Source: Deltaproteobacteria bacterium (lineage in GTDB: Bacteria; Desulfobacterota; Desulfarculia; Adiutricales; Adiutricaceae). From it: 40,674 bases of DNA. Both the position numbers and the translations under genes were made by a program. A model generated the notes under the pieces. That model was not told the DNA's origin. It saw nothing but the letters and a program-made list of their open reading frames with translations, and did no database searches. The stretch spans positions 1 through 40,674 of the forward strand of contig JAISEL010000105.1 in NCBI GenBank assembly GCA_031264185.1. Reading direction: 5' to 3'. Shown here piece by piece: positions 29,782 to 40,339 of the stretch (positions within the stretch are counted from its first letter, which is position 1; the number at the start of each line of letters is the position of its first letter).

Positions 29782-29850
29782 GATACCTGAAGAAAGTTTG
29801 AGGCCCCTCAAACATATCTTTAAGCCCAAGGGCTTCAGGAAGGTGAGATC

Positions 29851-31734
29851 ATGGGAATAGTCATTAACCACAATATGCCGGCCCTGTTCGCAGCTAATAT
29901 GCTGGACAAGAACTACAACCGTCTGGCGGTCAATACCCAAAGACTCTCCACTGGCCTGAAAATCAACTCCGCCGCCGATGACCCGGCCGGATTCGGAATC
30001 CGGGAGCTGATGCGTTCTGATCTGACAAATATGGAACAGGGCATGAGAAACGTGGCCGACGGCATCAGCATGCTTCAGACGGCCGAAGGCGCTCTGGCCG
30101 TTATTGACGAAAAACTGATCCGGATGAAAGAACTGGCCGAGCAGGCCGCCACCGGCACTTACACCACCTTACAAAGAGACATAATAAATTCCGAGTATCA
30201 GGCCATGGCCGCCGAAATTGACCGGATTGCCAATGCCACCGAGTTTAACGGGGTTAAGCTTTTAGACGGCACGGCCAACCTCTGGCATCACGGCCAGGGG
30301 CTCAAGATCCACTTCGGAACCGGCAACTGCCAGACGGAAGACTATTATTTCGTCAAGATCTGCGATGTCCGGGCCACAGCCTCCACCGGCCTCCGCCTGG
30401 CCGGAGATGCCAAAAACGATATCTGGAGCACCTCCCCGCTGACCGCCGGCATGGGTCCCGAAGGCTGCTGCGGCGGCGGCATCCCGTCTTTGTCTCAGGC
30501 TGTCTCGGGCTGGACCGGCGGTCAGATCTTCAGTTACGGCTATAACTGGGACAATAACGAAACCGTGGACACGAATCTTTCCAGGGGCCGTTATGTGGCC
30601 GGAGCTTACCAGCTTGAAAACGAGACGTCTTTATCCCAGCTTTTAAATCAGGTCAACAAAGGCTCCCAGTCCCGGGTCAGGCTGGATATCCGCAACACGG
30701 CCGACACCGATTATCTGACCGGCTACAGCGCCAGCCAGAACGCCACCCGCATCTGTCTGGACAATGAGATCTACTATCTGGGCAGCTATGCCATGACAGT
30801 CTGCGCCTGCACCGGGGATCTTTCGGCTTACGAATTTTTCAGCATCAGCGCTCACAGCGACATTGAGGCCGAAGCTATGCTATCGGCTTACAACAGTATC
30901 GCCGTACCCTTAGTCAGAGCCATTAACAGCTCCAGCAAGCAGTTCTGGGCCAAGTTAGAGGAGCATCAGTACCGGTCGGGCTACACCACGGTTTACATAT
31001 TCAACAAAGAAGGCGGCAACCACGACGACCTGTTCGGCAGCGATCAGTCTTTGGGCCCGGGCGTGGCCGGGAAAGCCGGTTACAGCTCGGCTATCCTATG
31101 GTATAACGATGAGACCGAAGCCTCGGGCACAGACGGCAGTTATTTCGGTAACGGCGGAGAGTTCTGGGGCGTCATGAGAGCCCAGCCCACAGCCTACGGA
31201 ACCTGGTCGGTCAGACTGGACGGCCGGGATGCGGGGGCCGAAAGAGATCTGTGGATCTTAAACGCCGGACGCAGCAGCGGAGTTCCTTCCGTTTACGACC
31301 TCGACTTCTACTGGACAGGGGGCTCGGGATTCGGCTGGTACGCCAATGCCTCCGGTCAGTCCTGGGTGACCGGCTTAAACCGGGAAACTTTTACCGAAAT
31401 CCAGAACGCCTCGGACGGCGACTGGGCCGGAGCCTCTTTAAGAACCCAGTCTTCGGCCCAGGAAGCCTTAGGCGCCATAGACGCGGCCATTGCCAAAAAA
31501 GAAAGCTGCCGGGCCAGACTGGGCGCTTACGTCAACCGCCTGGAAAATACCTTAACTAATATGGAAATTATGCACGAAACCCTGCAGGGGGCCGAGAGCC
31601 GGATTTCCGATGTTGATATAGCCACCGAGATGACTGACTTTGTCCGCAACCAGATCCTCTCTCAGGCTGCCGTCTCCATCCTGAGCCAGGCCAACGCTAT
31701 GCCTGAAATGGCCTTAAGTTTACTTAACGGATAG
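29851..31734 (+). CDS. fliC: Flagellin, large and cysteine-containing
   Basis: 627 residues. The N-terminal D0/D1 part is typical: NHNMPALFAANMLDKNYNRL, then RLSTGLKINSAADDPAGFGI and EIDRIANATEFNGVKLLDG. The C-terminal part, QEALGAIDAAIAKKESCRAR and AESRISDVDIATEMTDFVRN to ALSLLNG, closes the D1/D0 coiled coil. The roughly 370-residue middle (D2/D3) has Gly/Ser/Tyr/Trp-rich sequence and LKIHFGTGNCQTEDYY, which resembles Desulfovibrio-type flagellins. Eight cysteines, including GCCGG and VCACT, are unusual. GGAAGGTGAG precedes the ATG and a sigma-28 promoter lies upstream. It should polymerise into the flagellar filament after export by the flagellar type III system. Confidence 0.95.
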   Translation: MGIVINHNMPALFAANMLDKNYNRLAVNTQRLSTGLKINSAADDPAGFGIRELMRSDLTNMEQGMRNVADGISMLQTAEGALAVIDEKLIRMKELAEQAATGTYTTLQRDIINSEYQAMAAEIDRIANATEFNGVKLLDGTANLWHHGQGLKIHFGTGNCQTEDYYFVKICDVRATASTGLRLAGDAKNDIWSTSPLTAGMGPEGCCGGGIPSLSQAVSGWTGGQIFSYGYNWDNNETVDTNLSRGRYVAGAYQLENETSLSQLLNQVNKGSQSRVRLDIRNTADTDYLTGYSASQNATRICLDNEIYYLGSYAMTVCACTGDLSAYEFFSISAHSDIEAEAMLSAYNSIAVPLVRAINSSSKQFWAKLEEHQYRSGYTTVYIFNKEGGNHDDLFGSDQSLGPGVAGKAGYSSAILWYNDETEASGTDGSYFGNGGEFWGVMRAQPTAYGTWSVRLDGRDAGAERDLWILNAGRSSGVPSVYDLDFYWTGGSGFGWYANASGQSWVTGLNRETFTEIQNASDGDWAGASLRTQSSAQEALGAIDAAIAKKESCRARLGAYVNRLENTLTNMEIMHETLQGAESRISDVDIATEMTDFVRNQILSQAAVSILSQANAMPEMALSLLNG

Positions 31735-31779
31735 ATAACTAAACCGCTTTTCGGCGAAATCGCCTCATAAGGAGTTAAC

Positions 31780-32400
31780 ATGACCACCTTAAAAGAGTTT
31801 CAGGAAATCAACCAGCTGACCGGCTTACTGGCCAGCGGTCTGGCCGAGACGCCCCAGGAAGACATGCCTAAGGATGTGGCCGAGGCCTTACTGGCCGCCA
31901 AAAAACAGATGGAAGATCTGCCTCAGGTTTTAGAAGACCTGAACTTAGCTTTCAGCCGTTACATGACATTAAACCACACCATCAGGCGGATGGGCCTTTT
32001 GGCCCGGGAATCGGCGGCCATGGACCAGGGGCCAGAAGAAGATCAGTTCCGCCTGGAAATGGAAGAAGAATTTGTGGCTCTGGCCAAAATCGTAGCCGCC
32101 GAAGCCGGACAGCGCTATTTTCAGGGCACCGGACTTTCGATTCTTAATTCCCAGTCAGCTCAGGCGGCGGTCCGGGTCCTTTCTTACTTAGAGCCGGTAT
32201 TAAAAAACTTTGATCATGAAATCAGGGGCCAAAAAAGCCTGATTTTAGAGGCCATCAGCGAGACCATCAACTTCATGGGCATTGTGGCCAGATCTTATCC
32301 CCAGGCCAAGGGGGTAGAAGCCATCAAGCAGACCTTGGGCAGGGTTAAACTGCCTGAAAATACTGACGAGCCGGTCCTGATGCGCCCGACCTTCCATTAA
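31780..32400 (+). CDS. Mini-flagellin-like protein (D0/D1 helices only), cotranscribed with flagellin
   Basis: 206 residues with AAGGAG well placed before the ATG, 45 bp after the flagellin stop. I align it to the D0/D1 parts of the flagellin. LASGL matches LSTGL. RRMGLLARESA matches IRMKELAEQAA. EEFVALAKIVAAEAGQRYFQ matches SEYQAMAAEIDRIANATEFN. QSAQAAVRVLSYLEP matches SSAQEALGAIDAAIA, with an IxxTxxFMxI helix then corresponding to the flagellin ENTLTNMEI stretch. The two halves join directly, with no D2/D3 insert, and the invariant D0 termini (start motif and ALSLLNG end) are absent. Predicted all-helical. It could be a filament cap, minor filament component, chaperone or assembly regulator; none is shown. 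Similarity is distant and by eye. Confidence 0.72.
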   Translation: MTTLKEFQEINQLTGLLASGLAETPQEDMPKDVAEALLAAKKQMEDLPQVLEDLNLAFSRYMTLNHTIRRMGLLARESAAMDQGPEEDQFRLEMEEEFVALAKIVAAEAGQRYFQGTGLSILNSQSAQAAVRVLSYLEPVLKNFDHEIRGQKSLILEAISETINFMGIVARSYPQAKGVEAIKQTLGRVKLPENTDEPVLMRPTFH

Positions 32401-32416: not shown

Positions 32417-32515
32417 ATGACTACAATTCCTGCCCTAATCAAGAAAAAGCCGCCCGGATCTTTTTGGTCTGGAAAAACCGAAAGATCCCGGCGGACCAGA
32501 AAGCCTCAGCGGTGA
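32417..32515 (+). CDS. Possible 32-residue basic protein after the mini-flagellin gene
   Basis: ATG at 32417 is preceded by a strong GGGAGGCGG ribosome binding site 16 bp after the previous stop. The frame encodes MTTIPALIKKKPPGSFW followed by a very basic end and TGA. No homology recognised. It could be a real small gene, a leader peptide, or the remnant of a longer gene (another frame beyond it is Cys-rich, with VCCIC). Confidence 0.3.
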   Translation: MTTIPALIKKKPPGSFWSGKTERSRRTRKPQR

Positions 32516-32730: not shown

Positions 32731-33239
32731 TCAGTTCCGGACCAGATCAGCCGGAATTCTGCAAAAAAATTCCCCCCTTAGGCGTTCATCTTCATTAATA
32801 GCTTCATCTGTCTCCTGTGACTGCTGCTCGCAACTCTCCGCTTTAAGTTTTACATTATCCGTCATCCTCCCTTGGCCTATGGGCTGGCCAGAGTCAGCCG
32901 CACTTCCGTTTTGTCCCTGCCTTTGGCGATCATCAGCTTCCTCCCTGTACTCCGACTGCGGTTCACTGTTTCCTTGTTTATCCGGCTGACTGGCTGATTG
33001 GCGGTCTCCGGGCGAGCAATTTTCATTGTCCCCGTCTTTTCTTCGGCTGATCGGTTCCTGCGGCTGTTGTCCTGATTCGTCTGACCTGTCTTTTCTCTGG
33101 GCCACTTTAGTTTCGGCCTCAAGAGAGTCTTTTAAGATTCGGGCCGACTGACGGTCATTAAAATCATAAGCCCCGGGCCGGCCGGCACCCGTCAGAGCAG
33201 GGAAACCAAAGCCGGAATCAGAAAACTAAATTTAAACAT
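32731..33239 (-). pseudogene. Exported low-complexity family, array copy 1, broken in the signal peptide
   Basis: GAGGCG, four bases, then ATG 33239 begins MFKFSFLIPALVSLL, followed by TGA at 33192-33194. In the -1 frame from the base before that TGA, the sequence continues open to 32731: LTGAGRPGAYDFNDRQ, then KVAQRKDRSDESG (the VAQ-type motif), a hydrophilic Gln/Glu/Asp/Ser-rich middle, and RGEFFCRIPADLVRN at the end, a degraded form of the array's C-terminal motif. The frame break is at the same place as in copy 2. Either an inherited frameshift mutation or, less likely, programmed -1 shifting. Confidence 0.7.
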
Positions 33240-33402: not shown

Positions 33403-34244
33403 ACCGGCGATTATCCATACGGCAGTCCGTGGCAACCGAGCCGTCCAGCCATGTCCCCAAAAAACTCTGTCCCGGCGTTCCTTTTTTTCACAGCCGCATC
33501 AACGAAGCCCCGGAGCTGACTTAGAAGTCTTTGCAGCCGTGTCCATAAGCCGGAGCATTGCCTTATTTGGCGGCCGGCTTCAGCCGCCTTAACCGTCCTG
33601 AGCTTAACCTTGAATCTAATCAGCCACAGCTTCATGCATTCTTTCAATTGCTTTACTGCGGCGTTCCATAGACTCAATCATACTTGCGGCGTCCTGTGAC
33701 TGCTGCCCGTGACTGTCCCGCTTAATCTCTATTCTTTCCGTTGACCTTCCGCCTCCTGTCCGATCAGAGTCAGTCCGGCGCCTGTTAGGGTCAGGCATTT
33801 GAGGTTCATTATTAATTGCTTATTGCATTATATCGTAAGTTTCTCTCTTGCGCTGAAGTCTTTCCATCATTTTCTGAGAACTCCGCTCGTTTACGGTTTG
33901 GAGCAGATCTAAACGGTCAGCAGGCCGGTTACGGCCAAACGGCTGCCTATCAGGTTCCTGTCTTTGGGATCTGTTTACCGTGTGACCAGACCGATTGGCT
34001 GATTGACGGTCCCTGGACGAATAATTATCATTGTCAAGACGCTTTTCGGGGTTGACCGATCCGGCCTGCGGTTGTATTGATTCGCCTGACCTGTCCCGTC
34101 TCCGGGCCGCTTGGGTCACGGCCCTGGGTGAGCCATTTAAGTTTAGACCCGATTGACTGTTGCTAAAATCATACGCCTCAGCCAGCCTCAGGCCATCATG
34201 GACAGGAAAACCAAAGCCAGAATCAGAAAACTTAACTTAAACAT
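33403..34244 (-). pseudogene. Exported low-complexity family, array copy 2, multiply broken
   Basis: GAGGCG, four bases, then ATG 34244: MFKLSFLILALVFLSMMA then TGA (34188-34190). The -1 frame gives LRLAEAYDFSNSQSG, VTQAARRRDRSGES and an Arg/Asn/Gln/Ser-rich region to a stop at 33820. A further fragment at 33616-33798 (RRRTDSDRTGGGRSTERIEI) matches the middle of copy 1. Near 33403-33480 a frame gives WLDGSVATDCRMDNRR, the remains of the IWLAGLATLDR motif, and the DNA around it closely matches the end of the 34876-35679 gene (AACGCCGG, ACAGAG, TTTTTTGGG). So a complete former gene is present, broken at least three times. Confidence 0.7.
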
Positions 34245-34875: not shown

Positions 34876-35679
34876 TTAGTCCCGATCACGGTCATTTCTG
34901 CGGCCAAAATCCATAGCCCGGTCCAGGGTAGCCAACCCGGCCAGCCAGATCCCAAAAAAACCTCTGTTCCGGCGTTCCCTTTCTCTTTCCACAATCACGA
35001 TCTGAGGCCCGGATCTGGCTTGAGAATCTTCGTAACCCTGTTCGTAAGCCCGCTCTAAGGCCCGTCTTTGGTCTCGCTGATCGGCTCTCCTCTGGGCTTC
35101 CCGACGCTGATCCCGTCTGTCTTCTATTACTTCCCGGCGTCGCTGCTGGGCTTCCCTATGCTCCCGCTCCTTCTGACGTTCCAAGGCTTCCCGGCGTTCC
35201 AGCGATTCCCGCCGCTCCCTTTCCCTCCGGCGTTCCAGTTCTTCCCGGCGTTCCCTTTCATTTCTGGCCCGCTCCCGGTAATAACTGTCATCGCGGCGGT
35301 GGTCTCCGGGCCGGGCGCTGACCCGGCTGGGCGGTCCGTCACGGCGGTCGCGGTCAACATCTCGCCTGTTTTGACCCTGTCTTTGATGGCGATCCGCATC
35401 CTGCCTGGAATTGGGCCGGTTGTCGCGGTTAGAGCGCTGAACCGACTGACCGGGTGATCTACGGTCCTCAGGTGTTTTTTTCTTCCGGTCATTAGATTTT
35501 TCGGATTTGCCCGGTCTGGACTGATTCCGGTGATCGTTGTCTCGATCCTTTCTCTGGGCCGCTACCTTCGGGAAGTACTGGGAATCTTTGGTTGGCTGAT
35601 GATCAAAAGCCACAGCCTGACCGTTGAACATCAAAGCCACAGAAATTGCCGCTAAAATCAAAAAATTTAACTTACCCAT
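34876..35679 (-). CDS. Exported Arg/Glu-rich protein with C-terminal IWLAGLATLDR motif (array copy 3)
   Basis: 267 residues. Signal peptide: KLNFLILAAISVALMFNGQA, cleavage before FDHQ. The motif VAAQRKDRDNDHR is followed by Asp/Arg/Asn/Gln-rich sequence, then residues about 130-215 form a highly charged Arg/Glu helix or coiled coil (RRREREREESLERRE-like). A segment YEQGYEDSQARSGPQIVIVE leads to the end NRGFFGIWLAGLATLDRAMD, the only hydrophobic part, shared with the next gene. GAGGTG precedes the ATG by five bases. It looks like an exported rod or linker with a conserved terminal anchor. Function unknown. Confidence 0.8.
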   Translation of the reverse strand: MGKLNFLILAAISVALMFNGQAVAFDHQPTKDSQYFPKVAAQRKDRDNDHRNQSRPGKSEKSNDRKKKTPEDRRSPGQSVQRSNRDNRPNSRQDADRHQRQGQNRRDVDRDRRDGPPSRVSARPGDHRRDDSYYRERARNERERREELERRRERERRESLERREALERQKEREHREAQQRRREVIEDRRDQRREAQRRADQRDQRRALERAYEQGYEDSQARSGPQIVIVERERERRNRGFFGIWLAGLATLDRAMDFGRRNDRDRD

Positions 35680-36043: not shown

Positions 36044-37945
36044 CTAATCTCTGTAACTGTAATCTATTAACCGATCTAAAGTGACAAGTCCGGCCAGCCA
36101 TATCTGGATGAAACTACGGTCGTCATCGTCACGGTCACGGCGACTGCTGGCCGGAAGAGGGAAAGCAGTCACCGGCCCCTGTCTCCGAGTTCTACTGCGG
36201 TCCGGACCATAGTCATTGCCCTCATCGTAGCCTTCATCGTACCCCTCATCATAGCCAGCATCGTAGCCCTCGTCATAGCCGCCGGAGTTGCCGCCCAGTC
36301 CCAAACCGGTCCCAAACCCGGCAAATAAACCGGCTAAAAAGCCTGATCCGAAGTCTTCGTTTCCTGAATCACCATTGTCATAATAGCCGTCGTCGGAGCC
36401 ATAGTCATCGTAATATCCGCCAGAATCGTAACTGCCTGAGTCATAGCCACCTGAATCATAGCTGCCCGAGTTATAACCGCCCGAGTCATAGTACGGTTCG
36501 TAGCTCTCGCCTTCTTGGTTTAAAGTCCGACGTTCAGCGCTAAGTTCGCGTGCCCGCTGACGGTCAGCCGCCCGCTGGGCTCTAATCTCGGCCCGACGCT
36601 GTTCCCGTTGTTCATCACGTCTCTCTTCCCATTGTTCCCGGCGATCCTGACGACTATCCCTAATATCTTCCCTGCGATCTCCTGACCGGCGATTTCCTGG
36701 ACCACGATCTTGATTGGAACCAAAATCTGGACGCCGATCTCCCGGCCGACGATCCCTTCCAGGCCCAATATCTGCCTGGCGGTTCTGAGGTCCACGATTA
36801 CTGCCCGGACGCCTGTCAAAACGACCGTCCCTGGGATTGTTCCCGCCACCCGAACTTGGATCTTCATTGTTAAGTCTGGCCCGTTCGTAAGGCGACAGAG
36901 GATTATTTGATCCAGGACGGTTTGGTCCGGGCCGGTCACCGGGACGGTCACCGGGACGGTTTGGTCCGGGCCTGTCACCGGGACGGTTTGGTCCGGGCCT
37001 GTCAACTTGCTGTAAGGGCGACCTCGACTGGTCACCAGGACGATTATTAGGCCCAGGGCGGTCACCAGGTCGGTTAGCTCCAGGGCGATCATCTGGACGG
37101 TTGGGTCCGGGCCGGTCACCGGGACGGTTAGGTCCGGGCCGGTCAACTTGCTGTAAGGGCGACCTCGACTGGTCACCAGGTCGGTTAGCTCCAGGGCGAT
37201 CATCTGGACGGTTAGGCCCTGGGCGTTCCGGCCTTGGTCTGGTGTTGCCGTCTGGACGTTCCGGTCTGGGACGAGCACTTTGCCCAGGCTCAACAACCGG
37301 CTGTCTGGTAGGACTGGGGCGTTCCGACCTCGGTCTGGTGTTGCCGTCGGGGCGAACCGGTCTGGACCGAGCATTTTGCTCGGGCCGCTGAACCTGCTGC
37401 CCTTGCTTACGCTGCTGTTGCTGCTGGCGTTGCTGTTGTTCCTGCTGACGCCGCTGCCGTTCCTGTTGCTGTTGCTGCTGCTGGCGTTGCTGCCGTTCCT
37501 GTTGCTGTTGCTGCTGCTGGCGTTGCTGCCGCTGGCGTTGCTGCTGCTGTTGCTGCTGCTGGCGTTGCTGCCGTTCCTGTTGCTGTTGCTGTTGCTGGCG
37601 TTGCTGCTGTTGCTGCTGTTGGCGTTGTTGCTGCTGTTGGCGTTGTTGCTGCTGTTGCTGCTGTTGGCGTTGCTGCTGCTGTTGCTGCTGCTGTTGTTCC
37701 TGCTGACGCCTCTGCCGCTCTTGTTGCTGCTGTTGCTGCTGTTGCTGGCTTTGCTGTTGATCCTGGTTTTGCTGGCGATTCTGCCGGGATGGTCTTTCCC
37801 TCTGGGCTACCTGAGCAATAACCGGTAATTCTTTGGAAGAAAAAAAGTTCTGGTCTTTATTATCGGCTAAAGCCTGGCCGGTAAAAACCAAGGCCATAAT
37901 TACAGAAAAAATCAACCACCTTGAAGTTGACTTGACGTTAAGCAT
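36044..37945 (-). CDS. Exported polyGln / Arg-Pro-Gly repeat protein with C-terminal IWLAGL motif (array copy 4)
   Basis: 633 residues from MLNVKSTSRWLIFS; start chosen because GAGGTG lies six bases ahead. After the signal peptide (cleavage near GQALA) comes LPVIAQVAQRERPSRQNRQQ and a roughly 130-residue tract almost entirely Gln and Arg (about 55-190). Residues about 195-350 are decapeptide-like DRPGPNRPG repeats. Arg/Asp-rich sequence follows, then YDSGG repeats, a Gly-rich hydrophobic patch GFLAGLFAGFGTGLGLGG, YDEGYDEG repeats, and the end SFIQIWLAGLVTLDRLIDYS. The last motif matches copy 3. The whole mature chain should be disordered except the ends. Function unknown; matrix, adhesion or phase-separating roles are speculation. 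Confidence 0.82.
   Translation of the reverse strand: MLNVKSTSRWLIFSVIMALVFTGQALADNKDQNFFSSKELPVIAQVAQRERPSRQNRQQNQDQQQSQQQQQQQQQERQRRQQEQQQQQQQQQRQQQQQQQQRQQQQQRQQQQQQQRQQQQQQQERQQRQQQQQQQQRQRQQRQQQQQQQERQQRQQQQQQQERQRRQQEQQQRQQQQQRKQGQQVQRPEQNARSRPVRPDGNTRPRSERPSPTRQPVVEPGQSARPRPERPDGNTRPRPERPGPNRPDDRPGANRPGDQSRSPLQQVDRPGPNRPGDRPGPNRPDDRPGANRPGDRPGPNNRPGDQSRSPLQQVDRPGPNRPGDRPGPNRPGDRPGDRPGPNRPGSNNPLSPYERARLNNEDPSSGGGNNPRDGRFDRRPGSNRGPQNRQADIGPGRDRRPGDRRPDFGSNQDRGPGNRRSGDRREDIRDSRQDRREQWEERRDEQREQRRAEIRAQRAADRQRARELSAERRTLNQEGESYEPYYDSGGYNSGSYDSGGYDSGSYDSGGYYDDYGSDDGYYDNGDSGNEDFGSGFLAGLFAGFGTGLGLGGNSGGYDEGYDAGYDEGYDEGYDEGNDYGPDRSRTRRQGPVTAFPLPASSRRDRDDDDRSFIQIWLAGLVTLDRLIDYSYRD
36905..37260 (-). 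repeat. In-frame repeats encoding DRPGPNRPG units
   Basis: DNA units around GGTCCGGGCCGGTCACCGGG repeat many times, with a longer unit including the GACCTCGACTGGTCACCAGG stretch occurring twice. They encode DRPGPNRPG and QSRSPLQQVDRPGPNRPGD. Near-identity of the longer units points to recent internal duplication. Confidence 0.8.
37390..37780 (-). repeat. CAG/CAA-rich tract encoding polyGln with Arg
   Basis: About 390 bp made almost only of CAG, CAA and CGC/CGG/CGT codons on the minus strand, with occasional GAA. On the plus strand it reads as a Leu-rich frame (37280-37828), which is a shadow. Mixed CAG/CAA use suggests selection for Gln as well as slippage. Confidence 0.9.
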
Positions 37946-38533
37946 AAAACACACCTCAAATTACCAGAGGATCCCCATCCCAACATACTTGAGACTTTCG
38001 CCAACAATTAGGGCGCCTATATAAATAAGATACCATATTGAAGCAGAATATCAACTTAATCTAACAAAGGTATAACAATAAAATATCCAATAACAAAAAT
38101 AAAAATATAAATACTATTATTATATCAATTTTATACTACAACACTAACATAAGAAAAAAATTATTTCATATAGATAAAAAAATAAAACATATAAAATTAT
38201 TATTAAATAAAAAAACTAACATTGATGATGTCTGAAAAAATAACCTTATTGATTCAAATAACAAAAAAATGGCGGTAAGTCAAGAATATTTCGTGAGTGT
38301 ATTTTAGGTCCGAAACTGCCAATAACCATGCACAAAAAATTTTTCAGGCCAATCTTTAAGGCGAACAATTTCAGGGTTGACCGCCAACAGGCATCTTTAG
38401 TAAGGCTCGAAACCAAAGTAAATAAGTAAATATTATCTGTTTTAAAAAACTAAATTACAGTACTGTTATAAATGATAATCAGACCTGATCAGGCCGGATT
38501 TTTTAGTTGGCCTTAAGGCAATAGGAGAATTAT
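37946..38533. other. Very AT-rich spacer
   Basis: About 590 bp without a gene. The section 38040-38230 is extremely AT-rich with many A or T runs, fitting a promoter region for array copy 4 or silenced DNA. ATAGGAGAATTAT at the right end supplies the ribosome binding site for the next, broken, gene. Confidence 0.5.
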
Positions 38534-40339
38534 ATGGAGCCGGAACTGCCCGCTGGGATGCAAGATTTTGAAAAACTGGTAGCCAAAAAAGGCTTATATG
38601 TTGACAAGACTAAATATTTTCCCCTGTTACCAAAGAGAGGAGACGTTATTTTTTGTGCCCGGCCCCGGCGTTTCGGCAAATCTCTGACTGTCACCGCCTT
38701 GGATGCCTTCCATTCCGGGAAGAAAGAGCTTTTTTCATGGCTTGGCCGCCGAAAAATTTATGAACTCCCCTGAATTCGCCCCAAAGCCGGTCATTCGTCC
38801 GGACATGAGCCGGTTTCTGGACTGCGGCAGCAAGGAAATTCTGGAAAAAAATAATTGCCTGTCTGTAAGATATTGCTGAAAAATTTAAGGTTACTGTAAG
38901 CGGGATTGATTCCGCCGATGCCTTTTCCCGGCTGCTTGCAGCTGCCGGTAAGGCAGCCTCCCCAAAAATCGTCCTGCTGACTGACGAATACGGCACCCCC
39001 GTCATAAGTTTAATCCAGAGAGATGAACTGACTTATGATCAGCGGCTGGTTAACCAAACCCGTAACATCATGCGAGCATTCTATTCCATGGTCAAAGCCA
39101 GTGATGGATGCCTTGATTTCGTCTTCATCTCCGGTGTTACTAAATTTTCTGCAATGAGTGTCTTTTCCACCCTCAATAACCTCGCGGATATCTCGACTGA
39201 ACCGGAATTCGCGGCCTTCATGGGCCTGACTCAGACGGAACTGGAGCATGACTTCGCTCCGCACATTACGGCCGCAGCCGAACAGCTCAGGTCAGACGAA
39301 AAACGAAAAAGAGCTTTTAGAGCAGATCCGAAGCTGCTATGACGGTTTTTCCTCTGACGGAGAGACCAGAGTCTATAATCACTTTTCCACTCTGCTTTTC
39401 TTCGGATCCAGGGAGTTTAATAATTACTGGATGGAATCCGGTTCCAACGGTCTCATCCGAAAATTTTTAAATGACCGGAAACTCACGGCGGAAGAATTTT
39501 CCGGACTTAAGACCACTATAAATTTCGCCCGGTCTCCCGGAGAAACAGGGGCCGCGCCTCCCAAAGGCTTTCTTTATCAGGCAGGTTACCTGACCTTGCG
39601 TAAAGACAGCCGGGGAACCTGCACCCTTGATTATCCGAACTTTGAAGTCCGTTCAGCTCTGTCGGCTCTGTTCATGGACAATTTATGCTCCTCCGAGGAT
39701 ATCGGAGATGAGGTCCGGTCTGAACTGGACGGATATCCGGCCGCAGGCGATGCCCCTAATCTGACGGCCGTTTTGGGCGCCTGTACGCAGGCCTGTCCTA
39801 TCCGGATCATGCGGGATGCCTTTTCCGTGAGGCTGGCCAGAAGAATTTTGGGCGGACTTTCAAAGATGCTGAAAAAAAAGCCCAGAGACCTGCATGATCC
39901 GCTCCCGGATTGTAGTTTTCTGATTTCCATGCGTCAGAAGCATGGCAAGTATTTCTGTCGGAGCGCTTTGCAGTCCTGTCTGCGTGGAGCCGGGGCCCAT
40001 GTCCGGCCCGAAGCCCGTAAAAACAGAGGCCGTTCCGATTTGGAGGTCCGGTATAAAGGCCAGGTTTACATAATGGAGATAAAATCAGCCGCCGGCCGTC
40101 AGGCCGCCCATAACGGGATGACCCGGATCCGGGAGCTTGACTGAGGAGGAGCCTCCAGAAATCCCGTCCTCATTTCCATGGCTGCGGATACGGCGGTCAG
40201 GAACCTCGGGGCCTGCATCTTTGTGAAAAACGGAAAAACCACGGTTCTGGACCATCAGGAATTATACAGGCTCGCTCACCGGCCGGATACAGAATCAGAT
40301 CAAATTCCAGCCTCCCAGGATAAACCTGATATGGCTTAA
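38534..40339 (+). pseudogene. AAA-ATPase-like / PD-(D/E)XK nuclease (DUF1703-type) gene, frameshifted
   Basis: The start is intact (AGGAG, ATG 38534): ELPAGMQDFEKLVAKKGLYV, then FCARPRRFGKSLTVTAL, which is the P-loop of the AAA-ATPase-like family PF09820. Frame is lost near 38740; GLAAEKFMNSPEFAPKPVIR continues in another frame to a stop near 38878; IVLLTDEYGTPVISLI (Walker B region) to 39342 is in a third; SCYDGFSSDGETRVYNHFST to a TGA at 40142-40144 is in a fourth segment; after this TGA the same frame runs to TAA 40337-40339 (NPVLISMAADTAVRNLGACI). The nuclease motif is seen as RSDLEVRYKGQVYIMEIKSA (D...E-x-K). So at least three frameshifts and one nonsense codon: not functional as one protein. 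Intact relatives are widespread, often in many copies, in gut bacteria. Confidence 0.82.

Follow-up and report, generated by a model that had tools for sequence, protein, structure and literature searches.

A flagellin-D1-like protein family encoded directly downstream of one flagellin type in Adiutricales-like Desulfobacterota

Results

The flagellin and D1-like gene pair

The window, meaning the whole stretch of 40,674 nucleotides analyzed here, comes from a member of the Adiutricaceae, a termite-gut family (PMC9137090). On its forward strand, a single sigma-28 promoter box precedes a large flagellin gene, which is followed after a short spacer by a gene for a small flagellin-D1-like protein, here called P0001 (Table 1). 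The open reading frame of P0001 is intact, comprises 206 codons and begins with an ATG preceded by AAGGAG; the product has a pI of about 5 and contains neither Cys nor Trp. A partial RLSSGL-like stretch, LLASGL (residues 16–21), is kept near the N-terminus, and the ND1 homology segment includes RM..LA, R...EEF..LA and F.G..L. His206 is invariant across the clade A family to which P0001 belongs. In the paralogous clade B the C-termini are L-N or L-H, and a hydrophobic-Leu-His or hydrophobic-Leu-Asn terminus is common to both clades with few exceptions.

Table 1. Features of the flagellin and D1-like gene pair (positions in the window)
Feature	Position	Strand	Basis or remark
Sigma-28 (FliA-type) promoter box TAAAGTTATTTTCCTAAATCCCGATAA	29755..29781	+	Sole sigma-28 box in the 40.7-kb window
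Partner flagellin, 627 aa, complete Flagellin_N and Flagellin_C, large D2/D3 insert	29851..31734	+	Pfam 4.8e-36, 1.2e-22
45-bp spacer with ribosome-binding site AAGGAG	31735..31779	+	Flagellin stop to start of D1-like gene
Flagellin-D1-like protein gene (clade A, P0001), 206 aa	31780..32400	+	ORF, family profile
P0001 residues 37–117, flagellin ND1 homology segment	31888..32130	+	Profile comparisons
P0001 third long helix, residues 124–172, predicted to occupy the flagellin CD1 position	32149..32295	+	AlphaFold
P0001 C-terminal tail, conserved hydrophobic-Leu-His end, in place of flagellin CD0	32296..32397	+	

Directly 3' of the D1-like gene lies a 32-codon open reading frame (32417–32515), whose ATG is preceded by a good ribosome-binding site (AAAGGGAGGCGGTT ATG). 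No clear homologues of its product were found, and a possibly similar KKPPG peptide is found 3' of the orthologue in locus L004. Further along, two secreted-looking, low-complexity proteins very rich in R, D and Q are encoded on the minus strand (34876–35679 and 36044–37954) and share a C-terminal IWLAGLxTLDRxxD motif, with shorter possible remnants at 32731–33105 and 33820–34119. The gene at 39070–40144 occupies two overlapping frames, seemingly split by a frameshift; by its appearance, the product may be of the AAA-ATPase/PD-(D/E)XK nuclease type.

Distribution, promoters and selection

Clades A and B are two paralogous families, separated with a support of 100/100 and restricted to Adiutricales-like Desulfobacterota; neither was found elsewhere among 395 genomes of the phylum (E ≤ 1e-8). 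Two class-level matches from the first genome search (G045:C167 and G059:C24) were dropped as spurious, the former falling within what is presumably a GlyS-type tRNA synthetase. Besides the genus and family of the window (family f1), two other families of the same order (f2 and f3) have clade A. The gene order noticed in the sequence-only reading recurs in these relatives, a flagellin lying directly upstream of the clade A gene at every locus with enough sequence (34/34). Clade A is tied to one particular flagellin type, and the flagellins of the other type, in the window's genome and in genome G019, have no clade A companion. Clade B proteins, of about 215 residues, are encoded at separate loci and in f1 only, by a single gene whose neighbors vary (MutL, TonB/ABC transport, a type IV pilus ATPase and others); no gene neighbors of clade B conserved across families were found.

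Several local variations were recorded. In genome G029 the flagellin and clade A pair occurs twice (L049, G029:C1:540666; L050, G029:C1:14723), with identical clade A scores. In f2 and f3, an extra protein of 57–64 aa (..SRFVRPADLDA..), not found in f1, is encoded between the sigma-28 box and the flagellin (L138–L141: G037:C20:21276-21467, G039:C374, G040:C502 and G038:C23). Elsewhere in the window's genome (G000), similar tandem flagellins of about 1070–1100 aa are encoded at G000:C124 44233–51105, and a single open frame of about 1690 aa at G000:C157:13181 begins like a flagellin, with a flagellin N-terminal region.

The two clades differ in their promoters. Each of the 13 clade A loci compared has a sigma-28 box ahead of the flagellin operon (13/13; 0.00 expected from shuffles), and no sigma-54 box was found at these operons. 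A sigma-54-type box (TTGGC-N7-TTGC) was detected at 11 of 12 clade B genes (0.20 expected), with no sigma-28 box at the 12 genes checked. Since the spacer between the flagellin and the D1-like gene contains no promoter box and no plus-strand terminator-like site that we could find, the two genes are likely co-transcribed, and on position and promoter, that is, on DNA sequence alone, the cotranscription proposed in the sequence-only reading is supported. In some relatives the gap between the genes widens to 153–717 bases, and neither type of promoter box was found in these wider gaps. Just past the sigma-28 box, the flagellin leader contains a hairpin (GTTTGAGG-CCCC-TCAAAC, 29796–29813), and hairpins of changed sequence occupy the equivalent place in several relatives. 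Control of the leader by CsrA or by another factor is possible; a search against Rfam returned no RNA elements.

More than 30 genomes of the order carry an intact clade A gene, and near pairs give a dN/dS of 0.08–0.17, i.e., purifying selection. That P0001 could be a decaying, functionless fragment of a duplicated flagellin has a parallel in one relative, where an extra 76-aa partial tandem copy of the N half lies between the flagellin and the full gene (L032 3597–3827, G002/JAISYP010000057). The selection data, the many intact copies and the invariant C-terminal His refute this reading, to which we give next to no credence. Among 37 genomes of the same family, G023 is the only one that lacks both clades; it also has no flagellin and no FliS, keeps an FlhA remnant with nine stops, and retains a fliW-like gene. 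The link between loss of flagella and absence of both paralogues is supportive and, as it comes from one genome only, not conclusive.

The N-terminal half is related to flagellin ND1

Profile comparisons indicate that residues ~8–119 of P0001 are homologous to the ND0 end/ND1 region of flagellin. When compared by hhalign with 12 flagellins, the clade A profile gave a P of 4.6e-5, the clade B profile 6.4e-4 in the register found for clade A, and the joint profile of both clades 6e-6, again with the register unchanged. The N half alone reached a P of 2.2e-7; its score was 45.7, and none of 30 column-shuffled controls exceeded 24.8. The register is the one in which EEFVALAKIVAAEAGQRYFQ had been aligned by eye with SEYQAMAAEIDRIANATEFN in the sequence-only reading, and hhalign arrived at it independently. 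The proposed descent from flagellin D1 is thus upheld by ND1 profile homology for the N half, while the CD1 half is without sequence support (see below).

Searches against wider collections returned flagellins as well. In a search of all PDB chains, the clade A profile (A1, 34 orthologues) placed flagellins in positions one to five, with E-values of 4e-4 to 7e-3. Flagellin_N was the Pfam family with the most matching members (7 of the 34, best 9e-5). P0001 alone had no Flagellin_N match at E ≤ 10 and stayed below the gathering score of that family; a single-sequence search would therefore miss the relation. The joint profile (A5), run against 63 genomes of the class, retrieved its own members first, followed by matches with E-values of 4e-7 to 1e-4, and all 45 non-member matches that were checked fall in Flagellin_N regions. 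Most of these flagellin matches stop at profile position 117, the point at which the flagellin chain exits D1.

The aligned part starts around flagellin residue 20–29, which means that the first part of ND0 is absent, and the alignments indicate that P0001 retains about 20 residues of the inner ND0 end. D2/D3 and both polymerizing D0 ends are absent from P0001, as the sequence-only reading had correctly stated. Taken on these comparisons, the P0001 family is a real, new and order-specific family derived from flagellin D1.

Predicted fold and the second half

The second half was compared with flagellin by several routes. No Pfam match to Flagellin_C was obtained for P0001 or for the A1 orthologues; hhalign scores of the C half against flagellin fell inside those of shuffled controls, and so did local and global comparisons with a flagellin profile from which D2/D3 had been deleted. 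The alignment of QSAQAAVRVLSYL with SSAQEALGAIDAA, which the sequence-only reading had offered for the CD1 helix, is accordingly not significant. Its register, which places A127/Q128 on A536/Q537, ranked first among the ungapped CD1 offsets in clade B and third in clade A, a preference that is suggestive only. Sequence comparison gave no support for CD1 homology, as neither the half profiles nor the cut flagellin profile nor the ungapped registers rose clearly above the shuffles.

AlphaFold modeling of P0001, with an input of eight sequences from which the more distant orthologues were left out, gave a pLDDT of 85 and helices at residues 4–20, 31–80, 85–108 and 124–172. In order and approximate length, these correspond to the ND0 end, ND1a, ND1b and CD1 of flagellin, so that the predicted structure fits the D1 layout that had been proposed; the model of a second orthologue has the same helix layout. 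Among the best 50 Foldseek matches listed for P0001, flagellins have the highest probability (9lrz 0.99, 9lry 0.98, 9hpz 0.98); the flagellin matches combine probabilities of 0.97–0.99 with a TM of about 0.5 and weak E-values of 0.1–0.4. For the orthologue model, designed (de novo) helix bundles score above the flagellins. Given these E-values and the designed bundles, a flagellin D1 fold of P0001 is likely but short of proof. The predicted fold and the position of the third long helix suggest that the second half is the counterpart of CD1.

The same weak E-values, the de novo bundles that compete with flagellins for the second model, and a C half without sequence signal would also suit an unrelated helical bundle whose likeness to ND1 arose by convergence. 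A colinear match over 80–110 residues, to flagellins only, in both clades and in genes adjoining flagellin genes, makes such convergence highly improbable.

Comparison with known flagellar proteins

No significant family was found for P0001 in Pfam and NCBIfam, and FlgH, DUF7760 and Adeno_knob were rejected as candidates, their matches being weak and scattered. P0001 matched neither FliS (PF02561) nor FliW (PF02623), and the Pfam models for FlaG, FliD, FlgN and FlgL gave no P0001 match at E ≤ 10; one clade B member reached FlgN at an E of 0.1, which is not significant. The window's genome has separate genes for FliS (G000:C107:91787-92119) and FliW (G000:C74), and a role of P0001 as a substitute for either was dismissed on these grounds. 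The earlier statement that P0001 is not a FliS, FlaG, FliW or FliD therefore stands. P0001 shares with FliS the character of a small helical flagellar protein, but not its sequence family.

The closest precedent is HP1076 of H. pylori, whose description as a partner of FliS reportedly dates from 2010. HP1076 resembles flagellin D1 and is RpoN-dependent. It binds FliS at the flagellin D1 site with a Kd of about 15 nM and, by competing with flagellin, reduces flagellin–FliS binding (PMC7248283). Its role was left open: flagella and motility were normal in the null strain, and HP1076 was membrane-associated (PMC7248283), which makes HP1076 a precedent without a settled role. The sequence-only reading knew of no flagellar protein of this kind; HP1076 corrects that statement, which holds insofar as no sequence likeness to HP1076 is detectable. 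The HP1076 family (FliS_cochap, PF16522) matched neither P0001 nor its paralogue and is absent among the families listed for members of A1, A2 and A5; its lone weak match in the window's genome is a flagellin (E 0.26). Like HP1076, P0001 is small and without D2/D3, and it is predicted to be helical, with a likely flagellin-D1 fold. Both families are lineage-restricted and have FliS in the same cell. Flagellar sigma factor control is common to both as well: HP1076 depends on RpoN, and the promoter box of clade B points to the same factor. Unlike HP1076, clade A is driven by sigma-28 in an operon with flagellin, and the family comprises two paralogues in a different phylum.

With flagellin (FliC) itself, P0001 shares the ND0-end and ND1 sequence and the promoter type, and its predicted helix layout is that of D1; it differs in lacking the first ~20 residues, D2/D3 and recognizable CD1/CD0 sequence, and in scoring under the Pfam gathering threshold. 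Campylobacter FlaC is said to retain both D0 ends, which P0001 lacks. FlaC is a non-structural flagellin-like protein (PMC4863622) that is secreted (PMC4863622, PMC5466977), and P0001 resembles it in being flagellin-derived without being a main filament subunit.

Discussion

Our results are consistent with P0001 being a flagellin derivative reduced to the D1 core, which would consist of the inner ND0 end, the ND1 helices and a helix in the CD1 position. Sequence shows this reduction for ND0 and ND1, and the model predicts it for the remainder. Promoter and gene order suggest that P0001 and its partner flagellin are produced together in one sigma-28 burst. In flagellin, the D0 ends build the filament tube and the CD0 tail is the part bound by FliS. 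P0001 has neither the D0 assembly ends nor the FliS-bound tail, which makes the cytoplasm its most likely location. The flagellin export signal lies in a region that LLASGL of P0001 overlaps, and for this reason the protein may be secreted, which counts against a cytoplasmic location.

Secretion would lead to a different role, that of a minor axial protein at the hook–filament junction, the tip or the filament surface, docking on the partner flagellin through D1–D1 contacts. D1 is established as mediating the contacts between flagellin protofilaments, the inner ND0 is partly kept, the gene is co-transcribed with one particular flagellin type only, and the timing by sigma-28 and sigma-54 suits axial proteins too. 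However, both tube-building D0 ends are missing, there is no CD0 for FliS-mediated delivery, and the fixed motif of the C-terminal tail is unlike the end of the partner flagellin; we consider an axial role unlikely, if worth keeping in mind.

A decoy or sensor in the FliW–CsrA switch, which would take the place of flagellin on FliW and thereby shift the repression of flagellin translation by CsrA, is an improbable alternative. Of 26 same-family genomes searched, 25 have FliW, and the flagellin leader has its hairpin. In G037, an order-level relative, csrA-fliW adjoins the operon on one side of the clade A pair, and flgL-flgK-flgN lies on the other. Against this, FliW reportedly contacts the C-terminal part of flagellin, the part not conserved in P0001, and G023 keeps its fliW-like gene despite the loss of both paralogues.

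The explanation that we favor, at close to even chances, is that the proteins of both clades act in the cytoplasm as mimics of D1 and dock on the machinery for flagellin export, with FliS as the first candidate partner; the presence of FliS and FliW genes in the window's genome means that a chaperone is available to act on. P0001 would occupy the D1-docking surface of the flagellin-handling machinery in the manner of HP1076, and it would thereby tune the loading, unfolded holding or release of its partner flagellin for export. The sigma-54-driven clade B paralogue would act in the same way at the earlier hook stage. The family plausibly works like HP1076. A more specific and distinctly doubtful extension is a relay, in which the sigma-54 paralogue holds one chaperone or export site during hook assembly and the sigma-28 paralogue takes over for one specific flagellin while the filament is assembled. 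If true, such a relay would amount to control by mimicry that is specific to each stage and has an origin separate from that of HP1076.

Flagellin-derived proteins that are not subunits of the filament are rare and poorly understood. A second family of D1 mimics, in another phylum and with sigma-28 and sigma-54 paralogues, would make the idea that such proteins act in the timing or sorting of export testable by comparison.
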